Assembly (NCBI GenBank): GCA_021805565.1
Contig: JAJZFA010000016.1
Coordinates: forward strand, 1-64,000
Origin: Pseudomonadota bacterium
Lineage (GTDB): Bacteria; Pseudomonadota; Alphaproteobacteria; Acetobacterales; Acetobacteraceae
Direction: 5' to 3'
DNA: 64,000 nt
The notes beneath the pieces are model-generated. The model ran no database searches. It saw only the letters and a program-made list of their open reading frames with translations, and was not told the DNA's origin. Made by a program: the position numbers and the translations under genes. Each line of letters begins with the position of its first letter. Position 1 is the stretch's first letter. This document shows positions 19,579 through 32,069 of the stretch, piece by piece.

Positions 19579-20475
19579 ATGAGCCTGCGGAACATCGCCC
19601 TGACCTGGGCCTTGCGCCGATGGGTCAAGGGAAACGATCAGGATATCGCGGCATCCCGAGCGATGGCCGGCAAGGTGCCGTTCGGGGCAAAACACGCGAA
19701 AGGCTGGCGGGTCCGGTCCCCGGCGGAATCGCCTTTGACGGGCGACTGGATCGAACCGGTTGCCGCCGGCCATCCGGCCCTGGGGCGGTGCATCTTGTAT
19801 CTCCATGGCGGCGCATACGTCGCGATGTCGGCCGCAAGCTACCGTACGCTGACCTCCCGCCTGGCATATGCCGTTCCGGCTCGGCTCTTCGCGCTGGATT
19901 ACCGGCTGGCCCCCGAACATCCGTTTCCTGCCGCGCTGGACGACGCGATTGCGGCCTATCGGGCACTGGTCGCCAGCGGAATACCGCCGTCCCGGATCGT
20001 CGTCGCGGGCGATTCCGCGGGTGGCGGCCTTGCCCTGGCGCTGCTGATCGCCCTGCGCGACGACGGCGCCGCATTGCCTGCCGCCGCGGTGCTGTTCTCG
20101 CCCTGGACCGACCTGGCCGCCACCGGCCAAAGCGTCATCGATAACAGCGACAGCGACGCACTGTTCTTCGGCACGGCGATCAGCCGAACCGCGCGGCATT
20201 ATCTTGGCGATACACCCGCCAACACGCCGCTGGCCTCGCCGTTCTATGCGGATCTGGCCGGATTGCCGCCGTTGCTGTTCCAGGTCAGCGACACCGAAGT
20301 GCTGCTGGACGATTCGCGCCGGGTTGCGGAAAAGGCCGGACGCGCCGGCGTTCCGGCGACGTTGCGCATCTGGCACGGTCTGCCGCATGTCTGGCAGTTC
20401 TTCGCCGCGATCCTGCCCGAGGGCCGCGACGCCCTGAAGGAGGCAGCCACCTTCGTCAGAACCCACCTTCCATAG
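19579..20475 (+). CDS. alpha/beta hydrolase, hormone-sensitive lipase family
   Basis: This is 298 residues. The HSL-family oxyanion motif HGGAY lies at 76-80, and the nucleophile elbow GDSAGG at 144-149 (Ser146). The acid is in SDTEVLLDDS and the histidine in WHGLPHVWQ. DYRLAPEHPFPAALDD is also characteristic. Such enzymes hydrolyse short-chain esters of lipids or xenobiotics. It stands alone on the plus strand. Its stop codon is 5 bp from the 3' end of the convergent methyltransferase gene. Confidence 0.92.
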   Translation: MSLRNIALTWALRRWVKGNDQDIAASRAMAGKVPFGAKHAKGWRVRSPAESPLTGDWIEPVAAGHPALGRCILYLHGGAYVAMSAASYRTLTSRLAYAVPARLFALDYRLAPEHPFPAALDDAIAAYRALVASGIPPSRIVVAGDSAGGGLALALLIALRDDGAALPAAAVLFSPWTDLAATGQSVIDNSDSDALFFGTAISRTARHYLGDTPANTPLASPFYADLAGLPPLLFQVSDTEVLLDDSRRVAEKAGRAGVPATLRIWHGLPHVWQFFAAILPEGRDALKEAATFVRTHLP

Positions 20476-20479
20476 GCGG

Positions 20480-21055
20480 TTATGGTGCTGCCAGCAGATC
20501 GAGCCGATAACCCGGCCGCCGGTCTTGAAGTATAACCGTCATGGCACCCGCGGTTGCCGCGATAAAATGTTCCGCCGCCTGATCGCCCGAACACGGATCG
20601 TCCGCGTGTCCAAGCCAGTTGACCAGCACCGCCCGCGCGCCCGGCAACAGGCTGTTCAGGGTTTGCCGCGCGCAGCGGTCGATGTCGGCCGGCGAGAGAA
20701 AATACAGCACCTCCGACAACACAATCAGATCGAACCGCTGACTGGGCCATTCATCCGGTATCCGCATCCGCTGAAACCTGACCCACGGTTCGCCGGCACA
20801 ATAAGCCGATGCGGTTCGCAGCGGCGGGTCGGCGATGTCCACCGCCAGCAGCGTGTCGCACAATGGTGCCAGCATCCGCGTCAGCACACCGATGGAGCAC
20901 CCCGCCTCCAGGCCGCTGGTGAACCGGCGGCCTGCCAGAACCTCTATTGTGCGACGATATTTCGCCTGCTCGTATGCGCTGGTCCTGAACGCCCATGGGT
21001 CCGGATTGGCTTGATAAAGCCGGTCGAAATGGGCGGGTTCGCGCGAACCGGTCAT
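20480..21055 (-). CDS. SAM-dependent methyltransferase, NodS-like
   Basis: This is 191 residues. The N-terminus DRLYQANPDPWAFRTSAYEQ with the PDPW signature, and the SAM motif I as LEAGCSIGVLTRMLAP, match the NodS family (N-methyltransferase of Nod-factor chitooligosaccharides) and related uncharacterised proteins. FDLIVLSEVLYFLSP supplies motif IV. In other proteobacteria a domain like this is found next to or fused with a PIG-L deacetylase; here the PIG-L gene is directly upstream, overlapping by 4 bp. A role in N-methylating a deacetylated amino sugar is an attractive inference. It is the last gene of a four-gene minus-strand operon. Confidence 0.85.
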   Translation of the reverse strand: MTGSREPAHFDRLYQANPDPWAFRTSAYEQAKYRRTIEVLAGRRFTSGLEAGCSIGVLTRMLAPLCDTLLAVDIADPPLRTASAYCAGEPWVRFQRMRIPDEWPSQRFDLIVLSEVLYFLSPADIDRCARQTLNSLLPGARAVLVNWLGHADDPCSGDQAAEHFIAATAGAMTVILQDRRPGYRLDLLAAP

Positions 21056-21789
21056 GTCGTCAGAAACGTCTCGAACGGATTGCCGAACACCGCCAGCAAT
21101 TCGGCGGGAAGCTGGAAACCGCCGGGATCGTCGGCGATCAGACCGCCATATTGCGTCGCATGCGCCTCGATCGCCCGGCGTTTCCGCGGCAGCATCGCCG
21201 CGATGCCGAGGCGCCAGCCGGTTCCGGCCGCACCCGGTATCTGTGTGTCCGGCGGCAGTGTCCAGCCCCAGACGGGATATGCCACGTGCCGTATGTCCGC
21301 GATCGCGGCAGCGGCGCCGGCTGCGAGCGACGCGGCTTCATGGTCGCAATGCGGATCGTATCGCCAGGGTGCCAGAATGGCGGTACATCCCGGTTCCCGG
21401 CCGATCAGCCGGACCAGTTGCGCCACCACGGCCGCGAACCCAGGACCGCTGCTCGGCGCGGCGCTGTCCGGTTCGCCCATGAAGACAACACGATCCGGGG
21501 GCAAACCGAGACAAGCAACTGCCTCGTGCACCTCGCGCGCCCGCATCTGGCGCAGGCGGGCGGGTGGATACTCCCAGGAATTTGGATGCGATGCGGCGCC
21601 GTCGGTCAGCACCACGACAAGCGGAGCCCGTCCGGCGACCACGCAGGTCGCGATCAGGCCCCCGCAACCCAGGCTTTCGTCGTCCGGATGCGGCGCCAGG
21701 ATCACGCATGTCCCCTTGCCGATCATGTCGTCCAGGCCACCCAGGGGCAGGGCCCGCCAGGCGCGGTGTAAGTCTCCTGCCCGCGTCAT
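21052..21789 (-). CDS. PIG-L family deacetylase
   Basis: This is 245 residues from ATG 21789, which overlaps the acyl-CoA dehydrogenase stop as ATGA; a longer frame to 21963 lies inside that gene. The metal-binding motif APHPDDESLGCGG is at about residues 32-44 (H34, D36, D37), and the second metal site is the histidine of DPHCDHEAA. These are the zinc ligands of LmbE/PIG-L enzymes, which remove N-acetyl groups from GlcNAc-type sugars. It is sandwiched between an acyl-CoA dehydrogenase homologue and a NodS-like methyltransferase, with a glycosyltransferase at the head of the operon, so a modified amino sugar or glycolipid is the likely theme. Confidence 0.9.
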   Translation of the reverse strand: MTRAGDLHRAWRALPLGGLDDMIGKGTCVILAPHPDDESLGCGGLIATCVVAGRAPLVVVLTDGAASHPNSWEYPPARLRQMRAREVHEAVACLGLPPDRVVFMGEPDSAAPSSGPGFAAVVAQLVRLIGREPGCTAILAPWRYDPHCDHEAASLAAGAAAAIADIRHVAYPVWGWTLPPDTQIPGAAGTGWRLGIAAMLPRKRRAIEAHATQYGGLIADDPGGFQLPAELLAVFGNPFETFLTT

Positions 21790-22835
21790 GTTCTTGCTTC
21801 CGGGTGATCCGCGACCCACTTGGCTGCCTCGACCAGCACCTCGTCGGGGGCCGGTTGGCGAAGATAAGTGGACAGGTCGCGGCAAATCAGTTCGACAGGG
21901 CTGCCTTGCCGGAACGCCGGCAAACCGAGAGATCGTTGCAACAATCGTATCGCATCGAGGCACGCGGTTTCGACCGCGATCCGGCCCAGGCCGGCCATGG
22001 CGACCCGAGCGCCGACCGGCGCGGCGGCATCTTCCGCGATTCTGGCGACGGCGTGCACCCAGAGCCGGCAGGTCTCACGCGCAATGATCGCCAAACCACA
22101 ACGGGCTTGCGTATGGGGATTATCGAACCGGCCGGTTTGTCGGAGTTGGGCGACACCGTGTTCCAGCAATGCGATCAGGCCACCCAGCGCGACCGCCGAC
22201 CCGCGCCAGGCGCCAGCCGAAAAATCGGGCTCGCGCAAATAATCTCCCGGATCGCCGAGCAGCGCGGCGGCGGACGTTTCGCAACCCGAAAAATCGACCG
22301 CGCCGGTCACGGCCGCCCGCATGCCTTGCAACGGCGAAGGAAGGGGCGTTGCTGTTTCGCCCATGCCCAGACGCAAAACGAGCATCCTTGTGTCGCCATT
22401 CTCATCGCGCGCGGTCACCAGGGCGCCATCGGTATAGCCGGCTCCGGAGCAGAATTGTTTGCCGCCATCCAGAAAAATCCGGTTGCCTTGCCGGCGCATG
22501 CTCAGTCCGCCCGAAGGCGGATCGGTGACCCACAACGCACACAGGCGCCCATCGTCGTCGGCCGGCCTGCCATAGCGGGCGATCGCATGCAGTGCGTTCA
22601 CATGCGCTTCCAGAATACGGCCCACCGACAGATTGCCTTGGCCAGCCAGGATCAGCAACGCCGCCAGATCGTCGGGATCGCCGCTGCCCGAAACCGGCAG
22701 GGCCGGCGATAGCGCCCCGGCGCGGCGCAACCGGCCGATCTCGGCAGCGGGAAATTCCGCGTTTCGGTCCAGCGCGATGCTTCTCTGTTGCATCCAGGGA
22801 ACCATTTCGCGAACAGCGGCGAGGACCATATCCAT
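21786..22835 (-). CDS. acyl-CoA dehydrogenase-like flavoprotein
   Basis: This is a 349-residue protein of the ACAD fold: an N-terminal helical domain, a beta domain with NRIFLDGGKQFCSGAGYTDG, and a C-terminal helical domain with RLLQRSLGLPAFRQGSPVE in the place of the usual IQVLGGxGY. It is slightly shorter than catabolic ACADs (about 380), and the usual catalytic Glu near the C-terminus is not evident. An unusual substrate or a monooxygenase-like role is possible. Its tight coupling to PIG-L (4 bp overlap) and to the GT2 gene (2 bp gap) argues for a job in a glycan or lipid modification path rather than in beta-oxidation. Confidence 0.78.
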   Translation of the reverse strand: MDMVLAAVREMVPWMQQRSIALDRNAEFPAAEIGRLRRAGALSPALPVSGSGDPDDLAALLILAGQGNLSVGRILEAHVNALHAIARYGRPADDDGRLCALWVTDPPSGGLSMRRQGNRIFLDGGKQFCSGAGYTDGALVTARDENGDTRMLVLRLGMGETATPLPSPLQGMRAAVTGAVDFSGCETSAAALLGDPGDYLREPDFSAGAWRGSAVALGGLIALLEHGVAQLRQTGRFDNPHTQARCGLAIIARETCRLWVHAVARIAEDAAAPVGARVAMAGLGRIAVETACLDAIRLLQRSLGLPAFRQGSPVELICRDLSTYLRQPAPDEVLVEAAKWVADHPEART

Positions 22836-22837
22836 CG

Positions 22838-23899
22838 CTAGTCCGCCGCCAGGGTTTCAGGGGGCCTCAACGTGCGTAAGATTGCTTCGGCGGCGGCGAT
22901 TTCGTCCGTAAGCGCCGCGAAGCGGACGCGCCGGCGTTGCAAAAGCGGGCTTGTCGCTTCCAGCGCCGCCCAGGCTGCGCCAAACAACCGGTGGGCCAAC
23001 ATCCGGTTCAACTGTCCAGGCGAAATCCCCAGGCCGGCGGCCAGAAACCGGTCTTGTATGCCACCCCAGGCCCGGCGAGCGCGATTGCGGAACGCATAAC
23101 GCCGGTACGCGTCCGCGGCCGGTTCAGCCTGCTCGTCTGCCCATTCGTCCTGCTGGATCATCCGCCGCCTTATGGTGTCGGCCATGCCGCCCGCTGCCCG
23201 TCCGGCAATACGCCCCGACACCGTCACCACAATCGCCGGATCGTGCCGCACCCGTGCGTCCATCATCCACAGCGCCCTGACGAAGGCCCGGTCTTCTCCG
23301 GCGGGGATGGCCGGAATGCCCCCAACCCGGCGAAACGCCCCGGCCCGAACCGCGAGGCTGGCGCCCGATGCTTCGGTATGGCGCGACGGCGGATCGTGCG
23401 GTTCCGGATCGAGCATCCACGCGATATCGTCCAAAAGTCCGGTCAGCCGGCATTCCCGCGCGTCGTCGGCGTGCAAATGCGCCGGAATCAGCGCGGCATC
23501 TTCAGGACCGATCGCCGCTCGGCCGCACACGATGTCCGCCCCCCGCGCCAGCCCTGCACAATTGCGCGCAATCCAGTCGGGCGGCGTCACGGAGTCCGCA
23601 TCGGTGGTCAGCAGTACGCCATCCTCGTCGGCAAGCGATGCCGCCAGTTGCATCGCCAGACGGCGCGCATGTCCGGCACTGGCCTGGGGCGCTGGCAAGT
23701 TCCGGCTGACAACCTCCAGCTTGAACCGCAAGTCCGGCAGCATTGCGTGGGCAATCCCCGCGGTGCTGTCGGAACAGTTGTTCAGCATTAAAACCACACA
23801 GTCGGGCGTCTGTATTTGCCTGTTCAATGCCAGCAGGCACGGGCCGATCCGGCCGGCCTCATCCCGCGCCGGAATTGCGACAACGGTCCGGCTAAGCAT
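22838..23899 (-). CDS. glycosyltransferase family 2
   Basis: This is 353 residues if started at ATG 23899 (MLSRTVVAIPARDEAGRIGP); an upstream GTG at 23974 would add 25 residues without family similarity. The GT-A nucleotide site VVLMLNNCSDSTAG is followed by the metal motif TTDADSVTPPDW. GEDRAFVRALW resembles the catalytic ED motif of inverting GT2 enzymes. It is the first gene of a minus-strand operon with ACAD, PIG-L and NodS-like methyltransferase genes (2 bp gap, then two 4 bp overlaps). I do not see membrane helices, so the acceptor is probably reached from the cytoplasm. Confidence 0.87.
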   Translation of the reverse strand: MLSRTVVAIPARDEAGRIGPCLLALNRQIQTPDCVVLMLNNCSDSTAGIAHAMLPDLRFKLEVVSRNLPAPQASAGHARRLAMQLAASLADEDGVLLTTDADSVTPPDWIARNCAGLARGADIVCGRAAIGPEDAALIPAHLHADDARECRLTGLLDDIAWMLDPEPHDPPSRHTEASGASLAVRAGAFRRVGGIPAIPAGEDRAFVRALWMMDARVRHDPAIVVTVSGRIAGRAAGGMADTIRRRMIQQDEWADEQAEPAADAYRRYAFRNRARRAWGGIQDRFLAAGLGISPGQLNRMLAHRLFGAAWAALEATSPLLQRRRVRFAALTDEIAAAEAILRTLRPPETLAAD

Positions 23900-24034
23900 C
23901 GGCGCACTGTGCCATCGGAGATTTCCTGACGATTGCAATTTCAGGAAAGTGGTCCGCGCCGCCGCCGATGCCACCCATGGTCACCAGGGCGTTATGCGGT
24001 TTGTGTTAACAAAAAAGCGAAGTATAGGGCGGAC

Positions 24035-25045
24035 ATGACACAACACATCGAAACCGACGTGGCCATCGTCGGCGCCGGCCCGGTGGGGCTGTTCGCCGTT
24101 TTCCAGTTGGGTATGCTGAAACTGTCCAGCGTATTGATCGACGCCCTGGCCGAGACCGGAGGCCAATGCGCCGCCTTGTATCCGGAAAAGCCGATCTACG
24201 ACATTCCGGCTCATCCGGCGATCGAGGCCGCTGCCCTGATCGCCCAACTGGAACAGCAAATCGCCCCATTCCCAACCCCTCGTCTGCTCGGACGTCAGGT
24301 TACCGGCCTGTCTGGCGCATGCGGCGGTTTCACGCTGACCACGGATACGGGCGACACGATCCGAGCCAAGGCCGTCATTGTCGCGGCCGGCGCGGGCGCG
24401 TTCGGTCCTAACCGTCCCCCGCTGGATGGCTTGGCCGCGTACGAAGCCAGCGGGGCCGTGCAATATTATGTGCGCCGCCGCGAGGACTTGCGCGGCAAGC
24501 GTGTGACGATTGCCGGCGGTGGCGACTCCGCCGTGGACTGGGCGCTGGCGCTGAAGGATATCGCCCGGGTTGCCGTCGTGCATCGCCGCGCCAAATTCCG
24601 GGCCGCGCCCGAATCCGCGGTCCGCTTGGACGACGCAGTCCGGAAAGGCGAGATCGAGATGGTCGTCCCGTACCAGCTTCACGGCCTGACCGGCACCGAT
24701 GGTAAACTGTCCTCGGTCGAGGTCGCCACCCTGGACGGTACGGTGAAGTCGATCCCAGCGGATATGTTGCTGCCGTTTTTCGGCCTGTCGATGGACCTCG
24801 GGCCGATCGCCGCCTGGGGGCTGCAAAGCCAGGCGCATCGCGTCGAAGCCGATCCCGCCACCGGACAGACCAGCTTGCCCGGCGTATTCGCGATCGGCGA
24901 CGTTGCGACCTATCCCGGCAAGCTGAAACTGATCCTGCAAGGCTTCAGCGAGGCCGCCGTCGCCGCGCACGCGATCTTCCCGATCGTCCATCCTGGCCAG
25001 GCGTTACATTTCGAGTATTCCACCAGCAAAGGGGTGCCTGCCTAG
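24035..25045 (+). CDS. ferredoxin/flavodoxin-NADP+ reductase, thioredoxin reductase-like
   Basis: This is 336 residues from ATG 24035. The FAD loop GAGPVG is at 13-18, ETGGQCAALYPEKPIYDIP at about 40-58 is a signature of TrxR-like FNRs (YumC/Bacillus type and alphaproteobacterial type), and the NADP loop GGGDSA is at 161-166. The redox CxxC of true thioredoxin reductase is missing. The enzyme passes electrons between NADPH and ferredoxin or flavodoxin. It could serve the Rieske oxygenase at 9.1 kb, but that is only a guess from the absence of other reductases here. Confidence 0.9.
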   Translation: MTQHIETDVAIVGAGPVGLFAVFQLGMLKLSSVLIDALAETGGQCAALYPEKPIYDIPAHPAIEAAALIAQLEQQIAPFPTPRLLGRQVTGLSGACGGFTLTTDTGDTIRAKAVIVAAGAGAFGPNRPPLDGLAAYEASGAVQYYVRRREDLRGKRVTIAGGGDSAVDWALALKDIARVAVVHRRAKFRAAPESAVRLDDAVRKGEIEMVVPYQLHGLTGTDGKLSSVEVATLDGTVKSIPADMLLPFFGLSMDLGPIAAWGLQSQAHRVEADPATGQTSLPGVFAIGDVATYPGKLKLILQGFSEAAVAAHAIFPIVHPGQALHFEYSTSKGVPA

Positions 25046-26579: not shown

Positions 26580-28205
26580 ATGCAGGATGTCTATGATTTC
26601 ATCGTGACCGGCGCCGGGTCCGCCGGCTGCGCGATTGCCAGGCGGCTTGCTGAATCGGGCCAGTATCGTGTGCTGTTACTGGAAGCCGGGCCACCCGACA
26701 AAAGCCCCTGGATCCATATCCCGCTGGGGTATGCCAAAACCTATGTCGATCCGGCGGTGAACTGGATGTTCGAAACAGAACCGCAGCCGCAGATGCAAAA
26801 TCGCCGGCTTTACTTGCCGCGCGGTAAGACGCTGGGCGGCTCCAGTTCGATCAACGGTATGTTGTATATTCGTGGCAACCACGCGGATTACGACGAATGG
26901 CGCCAGCGCGGCTGCACCGGCTGGGACTGGGTATCGGTCCTGCCCTATTTCAAAAAGGCCGAACATCAGGCGCGCGGGGCCGATGACTTTCACGGCACCG
27001 GTGGCCCACTGCACGTGTCCGATCAACCGGAGAAGGGCGAGCTTTCGAAGGCTGTCCTGCAGGCTTGTGTCCAAGCTGGAATTCCGCCGAATCCCGATTT
27101 CAACGGCGCCCAGCAGGAAGGGTGCGGCTACTATCAGACCACCACAAGCAACAAGCGCCGCTGGAGTGCGGCAAAAGCCTACCTGACCAACCCGCCGCCA
27201 AACCTGACGATCCAGACCGGCGCCCATGCCACCCGCATTATCATCGAAAATGGCCGAACCAGCGGGGTGGAATATCGAACCACGGCCGGTCGCCAGACCA
27301 GCAGTGCCCGCATCGAGGTTATCGTGTCGGGCGGCGCTTACGGATCGCCGCAATTGTTGCTTCTGTCCGGTCTTGGGCCGGCGCAACACCTGCGGGACAT
27401 GGGTATAGACGTTATCCGGGACATGCCGGCGGTTGGGTCCAATCTGCACGATCATTTCAGTACCAACGTAAGCTGGCGGTGCAGCAAGGCGATTACGTTG
27501 AACGACCTGCAAAACAGCGCGTTCCGCAAGGCGATGGCGGGACTCCGCTATGGGCTGTTCCGCTCTGGCCCCATGGCCGGCAACGGCATCACCGCCGGGC
27601 TGTTCACCCGATCCGATAATCGGCTGGAACGACCCGATATTCAGATCAACCTGTTCGAATGGAGCACCAAGGAACGGACCCGGAATTCCGTTATGACGCA
27701 CCCGTTTTCCGGTTTCACCCTGGGGCCGGTTCACTTGCGTCCCGACGGCCGGGGGACGGTTCGTCTTGGCAGTCCGGATCCGTTCGCCTGGCCGGCAGTA
27801 CTGTTCGACTATCTGCGCACGGATTATGACATCCAGGCCGCTTTGGCCGGCGTGCGGCTGGCGCGCACGATCGCCGCACAACCGGCACTGAAGCCCTACG
27901 TGGCGGGCGAGACCGCGCCCGGCCCGGCTATCGAGAGCGATGCGGACCTGCTGGAGTTCGTTCGCCGCACCGGCGTATCCAACCAGCATCCCACCAGTTC
28001 CTGCGCAATGGGCACGGGGCCGAACAGCGTGGTCGATCCGCGGCTGCGGGTGCATGGCATCGCCGGGTTGCGAGTCGCGGATGCGTCGATCATGCCGGTC
28101 GTGGTCGGCGGTAACACCAACGCGCCCACCATCATGATTGGCGAAAAAGCCGCCGCGATGATTCTGGAAGACGCCAGGACCACCGCGCCGGCGCTGGCCG
28201 CGTAA
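26580..28205 (+). CDS. GMC family oxidoreductase (choline dehydrogenase-like), copy 1
   Basis: This is 541 residues. The FAD loop [15 protein letters not shown] is at residues 9-23, and the GMC signature GKTLGGSSSINGMLYIRG lies at about 82-99. The C-terminal catalytic pair is the histidine of SNQHPTSSCAMG and the asparagine of [10 protein letters not shown]. Such flavoenzymes oxidise primary alcohols to aldehydes. It has no signal peptide, so it is probably cytoplasmic or membrane-associated. A very similar gene follows after 32 bp; several stretches are almost identical (for example [18 protein letters not shown]), so the pair arose by tandem duplication. Confidence 0.92.
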   Translation: MQDVYDFIVTGAGSAGCAIARRLAESGQYRVLLLEAGPPDKSPWIHIPLGYAKTYVDPAVNWMFETEPQPQMQNRRLYLPRGKTLGGSSSINGMLYIRGNHADYDEWRQRGCTGWDWVSVLPYFKKAEHQARGADDFHGTGGPLHVSDQPEKGELSKAVLQACVQAGIPPNPDFNGAQQEGCGYYQTTTSNKRRWSAAKAYLTNPPPNLTIQTGAHATRIIIENGRTSGVEYRTTAGRQTSSARIEVIVSGGAYGSPQLLLLSGLGPAQHLRDMGIDVIRDMPAVGSNLHDHFSTNVSWRCSKAITLNDLQNSAFRKAMAGLRYGLFRSGPMAGNGITAGLFTRSDNRLERPDIQINLFEWSTKERTRNSVMTHPFSGFTLGPVHLRPDGRGTVRLGSPDPFAWPAVLFDYLRTDYDIQAALAGVRLARTIAAQPALKPYVAGETAPGPAIESDADLLEFVRRTGVSNQHPTSSCAMGTGPNSVVDPRLRVHGIAGLRVADASIMPVVVGGNTNAPTIMIGEKAAAMILEDARTTAPALAA

Positions 28206-28237
28206 ATTTTTTCCGGAACCGGCAGCAGGGGCGGAAC

Positions 28238-29854
28238 GTGACCGAACCATACGACTACATCGTGACGGGTGCCGGTTCGGCCGGTTGCGTTCTTGCCGCG
28301 CGATTGACCGAATCCGGACGGTACCGGGTGTTGCTGCTGGAAGCCGGCGGCAAGGACAACAGGTTCTGGATCCATGTGCCGATGGGGTACGCGAAAACCT
28401 TTGTCGATCCCAGGGTGAACTGGAAATTCGAATCCGAACCGGAAGCGGAATTGCTTGGCCGGACGATGTACCAGCCGCGCGGCAAGGTGCTGGGCGGTAC
28501 CAGTTCCATCAACGGCATGATCTACATGCGTGGCAACGCCGCCGATTACGACCAGTGGCGGCAACTCGGCAACGAAGGCTGGGATTACGACTCGGTTTTG
28601 CCTTACTTCCGCAAGGCCGAGGACAACGAACGCGGTGCCGACGAATTCCACGGATCCGGCGGCCCGTTGCGGGTGTCCAACCAGCCGTACGAATGGGAAA
28701 TCGCCAAGGCGCTGCTGGAAGCTTGCCAGCAGGCGGGCATTCCATTCAACCCGGACTTTAACGGCGCGAAACAGGAAGGGTGCGGCTACTATCAGACCAC
28801 CACGAAGGACAAACGCCGCTGGAGCACCGCCGCCGCATATTTAACGGCGGCGAAATCGCGCCCAAATCTGACGATCAGAACCAACGCGCATGCGACTCGG
28901 GTGCTGTTCCAGGGCAACAAGGCGACCGGGGTGGAGTTCCGCACGCCGCGAGGCGTGGAAACCGCGTATGCGGGGCGGGAGGTTATCGTATCGGGCGGCG
29001 CCTATGGATCGCCGCAACTGCTGCAACTGTCCGGCGTTGGGCCGGCCCAGCACCTAACCGACATGGGCATCGCTGTCGTCGCCGACATGGCGGGTGTTGG
29101 CAGCAACCTGCAAGATCATTTCAACACGTACTGCACGTATCGCATTTCCCGTAATCTGTCGCTAAACGCATTGCAATACAGCCTGCCGCACCGGCTGGTG
29201 GCCGGTGCTCGGTATATGTTCGGGCGATCCGGTCCGATGTCTGGCAACGGCATGTATGTCGGGGCGTTGGTGCGGAGCGACAAACGCCTGGAACGGCCCG
29301 ACCTGCAATTCAACATCTCTGCCTGGAGCACGATCGACCGCACCGCCGATGGCATCGTCTCGCACCCGTTTCCCGGCATTTCGATCAGCCCCGTCCATCT
29401 GGCGCCCCAAGGCCGGGGTACGGTGCGGTTGCGCGACAGCGACCCCTTTGCCCCGCCGCGGATCGAATTCAATTTCCTGCGATCGGACAACGATATGCGG
29501 GTCATGATCGCGGGCGTCCGGATCGCCCGGAGCATCGCGCGGCAGCATGCGTTGCAAAAGCTGATGGTGGAAGAAACCGCGCCCGGGGTTGCCACGCGAA
29601 CAGACGAGCAAATCGCCGAGGACGTCCGCCGGCGCGGCGTTTCGAACCTGCATCCGGTCGGCACCTGCGGCATGGGGCACGGTCCGATGGCGGTGGTCGA
29701 TCCGCGCTTGCGGGTGCATGGGATAGCGGGGCTGCGCGTGGTGGATGCGTCTGTCATGCCGGTTATTGTCGCCGGCAACACCAACGCGCCGACGATCATG
29801 ATCGCGGAAAAAGCATCGGACATGATCCAGGAAGATGCCCGCGCCGCGGCGTGA
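28238..29854 (+). CDS. GMC family oxidoreductase (choline dehydrogenase-like), copy 2
   Basis: This is a 538-residue paralogue of the preceding gene and starts with GTG. The FAD loop [15 protein letters not shown] is at 9-23, the GMC signature [18 protein letters not shown] follows, and the active-site histidine is in [12 protein letters not shown]. Copy 2 has the more usual HPxGTCxMG, where copy 1 has HPTSSCAMG, so the substrates may have diverged. It is cotranscribed with copy 1 (32 bp gap) and followed by a strong hairpin before the convergent dehydrogenase operon. Confidence 0.92.
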
Positions 29855-29920: not shown

Positions 29921-31489
29921 TCAGATTTCGTTACGGCCCATCATGGCGGACATGTTTTCCGCCTGACGGATCGCCAGTGCGACAATGGTCAGGGTTGGAT
30001 TGCATGCGGCACCCGAGGTGAACTGGCTGCCATCGGAGACGAACAGGTTCTTCACATCGTGAGTCTGGCCGAACTTGTTGACGACGCCGTCCTTGGCGTT
30101 CGCGCTCATGCGGTTCGTGCCCATGTTGTGTGTGCTGGGATACGGCGGGGTTTGGACAATGCGTGTCGCACCCACCGCGTCGTAGATCGCGCCGCCCTGA
30201 CGGTACGCATGCGCCCGCATTTTTAGATCGTTCTCATGGTCGTCGAAATGTACTGACGCGACAGGCATGCCATTCTTATCCTTGGCGGTGGGATCGAGGG
30301 TGACGCGATTGGTTTCGCGCGCCATGTCCTCTCCGACGATCCACATGCCGGCCATATTCGGATAATCGTCCATGCCGGCCGCGAAGTCCCGGCCCCAGGC
30401 GCCGGGATCCAGGAACGCGGCCATGAAGGGCAGACCGAGCGACAAGGTTTCAAGCTCATAGCCGCCGACGAAACCGCGTTTGGTGTTCAGCGCCGCCTCA
30501 TCGCGGACAATGCCGGCCATCGTGGTGCCGCGATACATATGCACCGGCTGGTCGAACACCCCATACACGCTGCCGGTCATGTGCCGCATGTAGTTGCGCC
30601 CGACCTGACCGGAACTGTTGGCCAGCCCGTCGGGGAATTTCGCCGATGCGCTGTTCAGCAGCAGCCGCGGGCTTTCCAGCGAGTTTCCCGCCACCGCCAC
30701 TACGCGGGCCTTTTGGCGCTGCGTTTTGCCATCGGCATCGACATAGACCACGCCGGTCACTTTGCCGGACGCGTCGTGTTCGATATGGGTCACCATGCTG
30801 CCGGGGCGGACTTCCAGCTTGCCGGTCGCCTCGCCTTTCGGAATTTCGGTGTAAAGGGTGGACCATTTCGCACCGGACTTGCAGCCCTGGAAGCAAAAGC
30901 CGATCTGCTGGCAGCTTCCCCGTTCATCGCGCGGTTGGCTGTTGATCGCCATGTTGCCGGTATGGACTTCCTTGTAGCCGAGCTTCGTCGCGCCCGCGTG
31001 CAGTATTTTGAAGTTGTTGTTGCCGGGTAGCCGCGGGATTCCATTTGTGCTGGTGACGCCCATCTTGAATTCGGCTTTGGTATAGTACGGTTCCAGGTCG
31101 CTCAGGGTGATCGGCCAGTCCAGCAGATTGGCTTCCGGCAGGGCGCCGTAGGTTGTGCGGGTTTTGAATTCGTAATCCTGAAACCGCAGCGAAGCGCCGG
31201 CCCAGTGTACGGTGGAACCGCCAACGGCCTTGACGATCCAGGCCGGCAGGTTCGGAAAGTCTTTGTGTACGCGCCAGCTTCCCGACGTGGTGCGCATATC
31301 GGTCCACGCCAACTGCGAAAAACTTTCCCATTCGTCGTTGACGAAATCGGCGATTTCGTTACGATTTCCTGCTTCCAGGATAACCGTCTTGATGCCGCGC
31401 TGGGCAAGCTCGTTACCGAGTGTGCCGCCGCCGGCACCGGAGCCGACAATGCAGACGACGCTGTCGTCGTTCAGATCGAATTGGGCCAT
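29921..31489 (-). CDS. GMC oxidoreductase, gluconate 2-dehydrogenase large-subunit-like flavoprotein
   Basis: This is 522 residues from ATG 31489 ([12 protein letters not shown]), preceded by GGGAGAAAC as ribosome binding site; the longer frame to 31615 has no support. The FAD loop [17 protein letters not shown] is near residue 14. The C-terminus has [10 protein letters not shown] and the closing block [20 protein letters not shown], as in the FAD subunit of periplasmic membrane-bound sugar or alcohol dehydrogenases. It has no signal peptide of its own; such subunits are exported together with a Tat-bearing small subunit, which is the next gene upstream. With the cytochrome c gene this makes a three-part dehydrogenase. 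Confidence 0.9.
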
Positions 31490-31544
31490 ATTTGTTTCTC
31501 CCTGTGCGAAAATTGGGCGAATGCCGCTTGCGCGATCCGCCGGT

Positions 31545-32069
31545 TCAACTGACCCAGTCGATGTCGTCGAAGCCGCGATGGATGTATCCGCCCTTGTCGG
31601 CCGACGATCCTTCATACCCGAACTTCGCCCAAAGCGGTTTCTGGTTGTAAAGCGTGACCACCAGGTCGGAGCGAAGCTTGTTGAAGAACGGTGTATCCTG
31701 ATTTGCCGTCAGGATAGCGACGCGGTGTGATTCCTCGGGAATCAACAGATACGACGTGCCGTGGCGCTTCATGGCGTCGGCGTCCAGGGTCTGGCAGCCC
31801 TGGGTCATCATGTCGCGTAATGCGGGAGCGCCGCTATCGTAACCGGCAACGGCGGCGATGTAATAGGAATCGGCGATACGGTCATGGGGATAGATATCGC
31901 GGGCGGCGCGCGCCAGCGTTGTCAGTGTCGCGGGCGCCAGATTAACGGCAGCCTGCGCCCACGCCGCACCTGGAACGATTGTCATAGCCGCGGCGATGCC
32001 GGGCATGACCGCCGCGCCGCGCAGAACGATGCGGCGCGTGATTTGGGGGCGCCGGTCAACGATTCTCAT
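31545..32069 (-). CDS. gluconate 2-dehydrogenase subunit 3-like, Tat-exported small subunit
   Basis: This is 174 residues. ITRRIVLRGAAVMPGIAA is a twin-arginine signal, with cleavage near AWA (about residue 38). The mature part with LARAARDIYPHDRIADSYY and the C-terminal LWAKFGYEGSSADKGGYIHRGFDDIDW fits the gluconate_2-dh3 family. Its role is to carry the cytoplasmically folded FAD subunit through the Tat system and to stabilise it. It lies 55 bp upstream of the flavoprotein gene and 21 bp downstream of the glyoxalase-fold gene on the same strand. Confidence 0.87.
   Translation of the reverse strand: MRIVDRRPQITRRIVLRGAAVMPGIAAAMTIVPGAAWAQAAVNLAPATLTTLARAARDIYPHDRIADSYYIAAVAGYDSGAPALRDMMTQGCQTLDADAMKRHGTSYLLIPEESHRVAILTANQDTPFFNKLRSDLVVTLYNQKPLWAKFGYEGSSADKGGYIHRGFDDIDWVS

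Follow-up and report, generated by a model that had tools for sequence, protein, structure and literature searches.

A four-gene cassette found in three bacterial phyla, often on plasmids, is a candidate pathway to a modified amino-sugar glycoside

Results

A coupled four-gene operon in an Acetobacteraceae contig

We analysed a stretch of 64,000 nucleotides, hereafter the window, comprising positions 1 to 64,000 of contig JAJZFA010000016.1 (assembly GCA_021805565.1) from a Rhodopila-type member of the Acetobacteraceae, whose nearest named loci lie in Rhodopila and other Acetobacteraceae. An earlier reading of the sequence alone (the original prediction) had proposed a tightly coupled operon of four genes at positions 20480 to 23899, and the coordinates, read directly, confirm it. 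On the minus strand, a family 2 glycosyltransferase (GT2) gene is followed by genes for a flavoenzyme with the acyl-CoA dehydrogenase (ACAD) fold, a PIG-L/LmbE-family deacetylase and a NodS-like methyltransferase. GT2 and ACAD are separated by a 2-bp gap, while the ACAD/PIG-L and PIG-L/methyltransferase junctions are each a 4-bp ATGA overlap.

22838..23899, minus strand: GT2, a GT-A-fold glycosyltransferase of 353 amino acids, first gene of the operon
21786..22835, minus strand: ACAD-fold flavoenzyme of 349 amino acids, lacking Glu where acyl-CoA dehydrogenases are known to carry their catalytic base
21052..21789, minus strand: PIG-L/LmbE-family N-deacetylase of 245 amino acids
20480..21055, minus strand: NodS-like S-adenosylmethionine methyltransferase of 191 amino acids
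23900..24034, minus strand: intergenic region, expected site of the operon promoter

The start of GT2 was placed at the ATG at 23899, near which its homologues begin; the open frame extends to 23974. The operon is bounded on both sides, by a convergent alpha/beta hydrolase gene (19579-20475, plus strand) that terminates 4 bp past the methyltransferase stop and by a divergent pyridine-nucleotide reductase gene (start taken as 24035, plus strand) located 135 bp upstream.

Conserved residues of the four proteins

Residue conservation was determined on homologues scoring at least 100 bits for ACAD, PIG-L and the methyltransferase and at least 85 bits for GT2, with locus L043 also omitted; L037/L053 was excluded from the GT2 profile, the frame being broken there. 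The alignments show the predicted catalytic motifs of PIG-L, the methyltransferase and GT2 to be intact. PIG-L scores 77.3 bits with PF02585 (gathering cut-off 28.2), placing it in the PIG-L/LmbE family, and each residue of its HPDDE and HxDH motifs (P33, H34, D36, D37, E38, H147, D149 and H150) is present in 53 of 53 sequences. Its profile is closest to the diacetylchitobiose deacetylases; BshB and the teicoplanin deacetylase rank lower. The methyltransferase belongs to the NodS family PF05401 (60.5 bits, gathering cut-off 24), with E50, G52, G56 and D73 conserved in 55 of 56 sequences. By profile, its nearest solved chains are 4isc (titled only Methyltransferase, and presumably of Pseudomonas origin), then NodS (3ofj/3ofk), then phosphoethanolamine N-methyltransferases. 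GT2 is a member of PF00535 (34.1 bits, cut-off 23.3) with a GT-A fold, and its DxD and ED residues are D100 (48/49 sequences), D102 (49/49), E202 (49/49) and D203 (48/49). Its profile found no match among PDB sequences; its AlphaFold model (pLDDT 90.3) gave GT-A-type Foldseek matches, the best of which include AvpGT, WrtF, PcManGT, TarS and hyaluronan synthase.

The ACAD-like protein of the window reaches no Pfam cut-off (PF02770, 19.7 bits versus 33.3), and its fold was assigned by Foldseek from an AlphaFold model with pLDDT 88.5 (best E 1.4e-15; TMq 0.74-0.86 across the first 50 matches listed). The matches include 5gj7, TdsC, SCAD and KijD3, and in those first 50 the TdsC/DszC monooxygenases are mixed with many acyl-CoA dehydrogenases, KijD3 ranking 40 and 50. 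The best PDB profile match is a methanesulfinate monooxygenase (84.6 bits). When NCBIfam matches were counted at E 0.001 among 18 members of the subfamily, SfnB was matched by 16, FadE16 by 12 and DszC by 10, with the best E-values going to DszC and SfnB; the window protein itself remains below the SfnB cut-off (18.5 versus 430.9 bits).

What sets this subfamily apart is the absence of the usual dehydrogenase residue. None of 60 aligned sequences has a Glu at window residue 328 or 208, which we take, from hand placement on the alignment, to be the catalytic Glu sites of SCAD/MCAD and of IVD, respectively. Residue 328 is Pro, Ser, Ala, Cys or Thr and residue 208 is Gly, and the neighbouring Arg326 and Gln327 are invariant in all 60. 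Because Glu is missing at both known catalytic positions throughout, an acyl-CoA dehydrogenase role for this protein is doubtful and we disfavour it; a flavin oxygenase role appears likelier, and the inferred chemistry is an unusual flavin reaction, oxygenase-like or otherwise, rather than that of an ordinary acyl-CoA dehydrogenase. The cassette delimits an ACAD subfamily lacking this residue whose members are annotated as acyl-CoA dehydrogenases in the records examined.

On two Deinococcus plasmids (L060:6750-9086 and L066:6714-9074), the ACAD domain belongs to a fusion protein whose N-terminal domain, ~420 amino acids long, resembles a neighbouring family 1 glycosylhydrolase, with 24-25% identity.

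The ACAD-PIG-L-methyltransferase core is conserved across phyla

All four genes occur together in 14 of 17 named related loci, which argues that their grouping is not due to chance. The other three are L033, which is without GT2, L043, which is truncated at the end of its contig, and L037, which is disrupted. Duplicate loci (L052-L056), L051 with its distant ACAD and control loci L128-L130 were dropped before counting, and the missing GT2 in L101 carries no information because 8001 of the 13001 positions there are N. In L037/L053, from Acidisphaera sp. S103, GT2 is broken into two frames and the stretch contains neither PIG-L nor methyltransferase; this locus is possibly a decaying copy or an assembly error. 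The cassette is patchy even in close relatives: a close ACAD homologue (at least 219 bits) was found in 14 of 33 sampled genomes of the genus, the window's own included. In the source genome, the NodS family is represented by a single gene, and the window protein has a single ACAD match.

Across the phylum, 398 genomes were searched with a profile (A1) built from 18 diverse ACADs, with at most five candidates scored per genome. The profile matched 109 genomes at E 1e-20, and 33 of these exceed 100 bits; in the remaining 76, the ACADs score 97 bits or less and the alignment ends by profile position 332, short of the R-Q motif. Partner genes were counted within 7 kb of the ACAD, the window being included among the 33 genomes. 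Near the subfamily ACAD, a methyltransferase was found in 32 of the 33 genomes, PIG-L in 28 and all four genes in 24, while ACAD, PIG-L and the methyltransferase without a recognised GT2 accounted for three and ACAD with PIG-L alone for one. No cassette partners were present at next-best ACAD loci in the three examined from the 76 lower-scoring genomes. Conservation of gene order outside close relatives, which the original prediction had made its test of an undescribed biosynthetic system, holds for ACAD-PIG-L-methyltransferase, a constant core across phyla; it does not hold for GT2, which is upstream, convergent or downstream. For that core, the idea of an undescribed system survives.

The cassette is widespread and, outside the window's genome, often plasmid-borne. 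Beyond the Acetobacteraceae, all four genes lie on named plasmid records of Deinococcus (NW-56 and AJ005), Novosphingobium, Bradyrhizobium and Roseivivax and also of Comamonas, Acinetobacter and Nostoc, the Nostoc and A. baumannii copies being recognised by profile. Komagataeibacter is a further carrier. The Roseomonas copy is without GT2, the Pandoraea copy has its GT2 match divided between two frames, and the Cupriavidus copy has only a distant PIG-L (26.7 bits, ~3 kb off); in D. radiodurans a helicase gene lies between PIG-L and the methyltransferase, and GT2 was not seen. In four loci of one genus (L109:8997-9935, L111:3111-3875, L113:8345-9220 and L116:3023-3793), the cassette is followed by an additional PIG-L frame scoring 132-141 bits. 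Three A. baumannii records of 3.7-4.1 Mb (NZ_CP077849.1, NZ_CP064203.1 and NZ_CP104448.1) are filed as plasmids and look like chromosomes.

Trehalose and oxidative-stress genes lie near the cassette in relatives

A link to trehalose and oxidative-stress genes, not foreseen by the original prediction, was found when the distance to ACAD was measured for five families (TreY, OtsB, Mn-catalase, catalase and Ku) in the 33 cassette genomes. Genes of these families lie within 10 kb of ACAD in 19 pairs from 17 genomes, versus 0.84 expected at random placement: six of the 26 TreY copies over the cut-off, three of 25 for OtsB, four of 21 for Mn-catalase, four of 102 for catalase and two of 27 for Ku. 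The control, ribosomal protein S2, was within 10 kb in none of the 33. In the source genome, TreY, OtsB and Mn-catalase are located on contigs other than that of the cassette, and Ku and catalase were not found.

On a Comamonas plasmid (L143:5571-10539), the cassette is inserted between otsA and otsB in the order otsA-ACAD-PIGL-MT-GT-otsB (MT, methyltransferase); the first junction is a 4-bp overlap and the last a 4-bp gap. In the low-GC genome G130, ACAD is preceded in the same orientation by an OtsB gene and an otsA-like frame (assigned by eye). Two Acinetobacter plasmids each carry, in one stretch, a catalase, DUF2171, the cassette, an MFS transporter, otsA and otsB, and a third has transposase genes upstream and the cassette with otsA, with no catalase among the listed features. 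In full, the order on the first two (L139 and L141) is catalase-DUF421-iron redox enzyme-DUF2171-cassette-MFS-otsAB, and transposase genes border the L141 module. Co-location with trehalose genes may reflect shared regulation only.

The Acinetobacter counterpart and its expression

The four cassette genes of an A. baumannii record score 131, 153, 160 and 124 bits with the cassette profiles, and the small frames that flank them fit, by eye, the DUF2171, BOF and BLUF genes that PMC9020721 shows around anbluf65/blsA. This operon beside blsA/anbluf65, described for Acinetobacter in PMC6240043, is like the window cassette in that its four genes match the profiles and unlike it in that its glycosyltransferase is downstream and shorter. 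In PMC5660220, ACICU_02432-02435 are given as one operon encoding a glycosyltransferase, a SAM-dependent methyltransferase, LmbE and an acyl-CoA dehydrogenase-related protein, which we equated with the cassette by product names and gene order. According to Table 2 of that paper, these genes drop 31-62 fold in colistin-dependent mutants versus their parents, and otsA, otsB and a catalase are in the same strongly lowered list of 33 genes. Where the operon is drawn or tabulated in these three papers, no function is given for it. The literature searched, which covered few subscription journals, yielded no description of the cassette's function and no characterised product, in agreement with the original prediction.

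Surroundings of the operon in the window

The divergent reductase (24035-25045) is 85-89% identical in seven related loci and 42% identical in L119, and it was not found in the remaining loci searched. Given this restricted occurrence, we rejected it as a cassette member and regard it as a genus neighbour. The intergenic region at 23900..24034 gave no sigma-70-like or EcfG-like match. Counts of sigma-70 promoters and terminators were close to expectation, at one versus 0.8 and three versus 2.5, respectively. There is no GC signal of a foreign island (cassette 0.661; 3.4-kb windows, mean 0.635, standard deviation 0.029), and the repeats listed are only short, imperfect families. Further along, two adjacent, similar frames of GMC-type oxidoreductases (541 and 538 amino acids, family assigned by eye) occupy 26580-29854, and a third related frame lies at 29921-31615 on the opposite strand. 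Clustering of neighbour frames produced many antisense shadow open reading frames.

Discussion

Building on the conserved cassette, its intact motifs and the stress-gene neighbourhood seen in relatives, we judge it an evenly balanced proposition that the cassette makes a small modified amino-sugar glycoside and is, in many hosts, part of a desiccation, osmotic or oxidative stress programme. A glycosyltransferase acting ahead of a PIG-L enzyme is the established order in the mycothiol, bacillithiol, butirosin and teicoplanin pathways. GT2 would use a nucleotide sugar to place an N-acetylhexosamine on an acceptor, and PIG-L would remove the N-acetyl group. Because a NodS-like methyltransferase joins this pair, methylation of the exposed amine is suggested, and the logic of glycosyltransferase, deacetylase and methyltransferase acting on an amino sugar, as first predicted, is supported. 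The ACAD-fold flavoprotein would then oxidise the resulting compound, most likely acting as a DszC/SfnB/KijD3-type oxygenase; KijD3 reportedly shows that the ACAD fold can oxidise amino sugars. The best reading of the product is a deacetylated, methylated and oxidised amino-sugar glycoside, and a surface glycan and a stress solute, for instance trehalose, are the leading acceptor candidates. The modified glycolipid first suggested is a possible product.

We hypothesize, as a rather unlikely extension, a new class of stress metabolite in which an N-methylated, flavin-oxygenated amino sugar is joined to trehalose or to an acceptor derived from trehalose or alpha-glucan, made with OtsAB or TreY/GlgE and spread by plasmids across Pseudomonadota, Deinococcota and Cyanobacteriota. 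This four-enzyme orphan pathway is a good candidate for a new bacterial stress metabolite, since it occurs in three phyla and often on plasmids, is inserted in a trehalose operon on one plasmid and, in an A. baumannii data set, drops jointly with trehalose synthesis and a catalase. The conservation across phyla and the association with stress and trehalose genes go beyond what had been predicted.

Several observations pull the other way. An adjacent subfamily PIG-L is missing in five of the 33 genomes, which have ACAD with the methyltransferase; it is found elsewhere in the genome in G207 (278 bits), G085 (290 bits) and G194 (185 bits), while G378 and G311 have none genome-wide at E 1e-10, G311 having a 32-bit match downstream. 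One Methylobacterium plasmid carries ACAD alone. The structural matches of GT2 are weak over the whole chain (TMq ~0.4-0.5). For the ACAD-like protein, dehydrogenases are among the top Foldseek matches, two acyl-CoA dehydrogenase entries follow closely in the PDB profile search (80.5 and 79.6 bits), and a sulfinopropanoyl-CoA desulfinase model matches 14 of the 18 members and scores 18.9 bits with the window protein, slightly above SfnB. An Asp or Glu at residue 331, three places on from 328, is present in 59 of 60 sequences and could act as a base. As to the stress genes, none of the five families lies near the window's own copy, and the families were picked after the neighbours in named loci had been seen. 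Related genomes are not independent, and since a single genus supplies four of the TreY cases and stress genes cluster together, the independent events number fewer than 19. Only five of 34 alphaproteobacterial loci, the window not among them, have an EcfG-like motif in the 1.7 kb preceding ACAD, and an EcfG-type stress promoter was rejected. Finally, the comparison in PMC5660220 is of colistin-dependent mutants with their parents, not a stress experiment.

A surface polysaccharide or glycolipid modifier is the strongest alternative, and we hold it to be possible though clearly less probable: GT2 would act as one among several transferases, with the cassette decorating a single sugar within a larger envelope glycan. 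In four alphaproteobacterial loci (L062, L100, L102 and L104) that share a larger cluster, the cassette is flanked by a GT4, another glycosyltransferase and a second GT2. In Deinococcus AJ005 its flanking genes encode a UDP-galactopyranose mutase, GT1, GH1 and SDR, and an LTA-synthase-family gene lies 4 kb from the Roseomonas cassette. In contrast, a single glycosyltransferase stands beside the core in the window and in the Acinetobacter, Comamonas and Cupriavidus copies, and no flippase or polymerase was found by annotation name, no membrane-segment prediction being made, in 14 annotated cassette stretches.

A role for the cassette in a glycolipid pathway, with the ACAD enzyme desaturating or otherwise processing an acyl chain, seems decidedly unlikely. 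The fold, the dehydrogenase matches and the acidic residue at 331 are consistent with it, as is an acyl-CoA thioesterase gene 5 kb from the Komagataeibacter cassette. The acyl step of the original prediction is nevertheless disfavoured by the missing Glu residues, and no acyltransferase, acyl carrier protein or thioesterase was found among the ten recurrent neighbour frames scanned.

We regard as highly improbable a low-molecular-weight thiol pathway that, like mycothiol or bacillithiol synthesis, would use a glycosyltransferase, PIG-L and further steps against redox stress. Such a pathway would have the same order of glycosyltransferase and deacetylase, PIG-L matches BshB and MshB, and catalases lie nearby in four relatives. 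However, PIG-L scores 36.1 bits with the BshB1 model (TIGR04001) against a cut-off of 182.5, the cassette contains no cysteine ligase (the genomes were not searched for one), and its transferase is a GT2, not of the GT4 type to which MshA and BshA belong; membership was rejected on the curated cut-offs.

Nod-factor-like lipo-chitooligosaccharide synthesis is barely credible and the analogy superficial: the methyltransferase has NodS as its second-nearest solved structure and hyaluronan synthases are among the GT2 Foldseek matches, but the methyltransferase scores 64.1 bits against the NCBIfam NodS (NF041650) cut-off of 300, on which membership was rejected, no NodC model is among the GT2 NCBIfam matches, and the hosts include Deinococcus, Nostoc and Acinetobacter, which are not known to nodulate.

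Comparison with known systems

The cassette resembles the pairs of glycosyltransferase and PIG-L in mycothiol, bacillithiol, butirosin-type and teicoplanin-type pathways, in which the transferase installs GlcNAc and a PIG-L/LmbE enzyme deacetylates it, and its PIG-L is homologous to MshB, BshB and the teicoplanin deacetylase. Unlike these pairs, it combines a GT2 with an ACAD-fold flavoenzyme and a NodS-like methyltransferase, and its PIG-L is below the BshB, MshB and Mca cut-offs. With NodS (3ofj/3ofk), the methyltransferase shares the Pfam family, a DPW motif and a solved-structure match, yet it falls far under the NCBIfam cut-off, and no nod genes are among the listed neighbours, the genome not having been searched for nodABC. 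Finally, the ACAD-like protein shares its fold with the methanesulfinate monooxygenase 6u76, TdsC/DszC, SfnB and KijD3, which are among its nearest profile or model matches; the window protein's score below the SfnB cut-off and the subfamily's own invariant C-terminal R-Q motif are points of difference.

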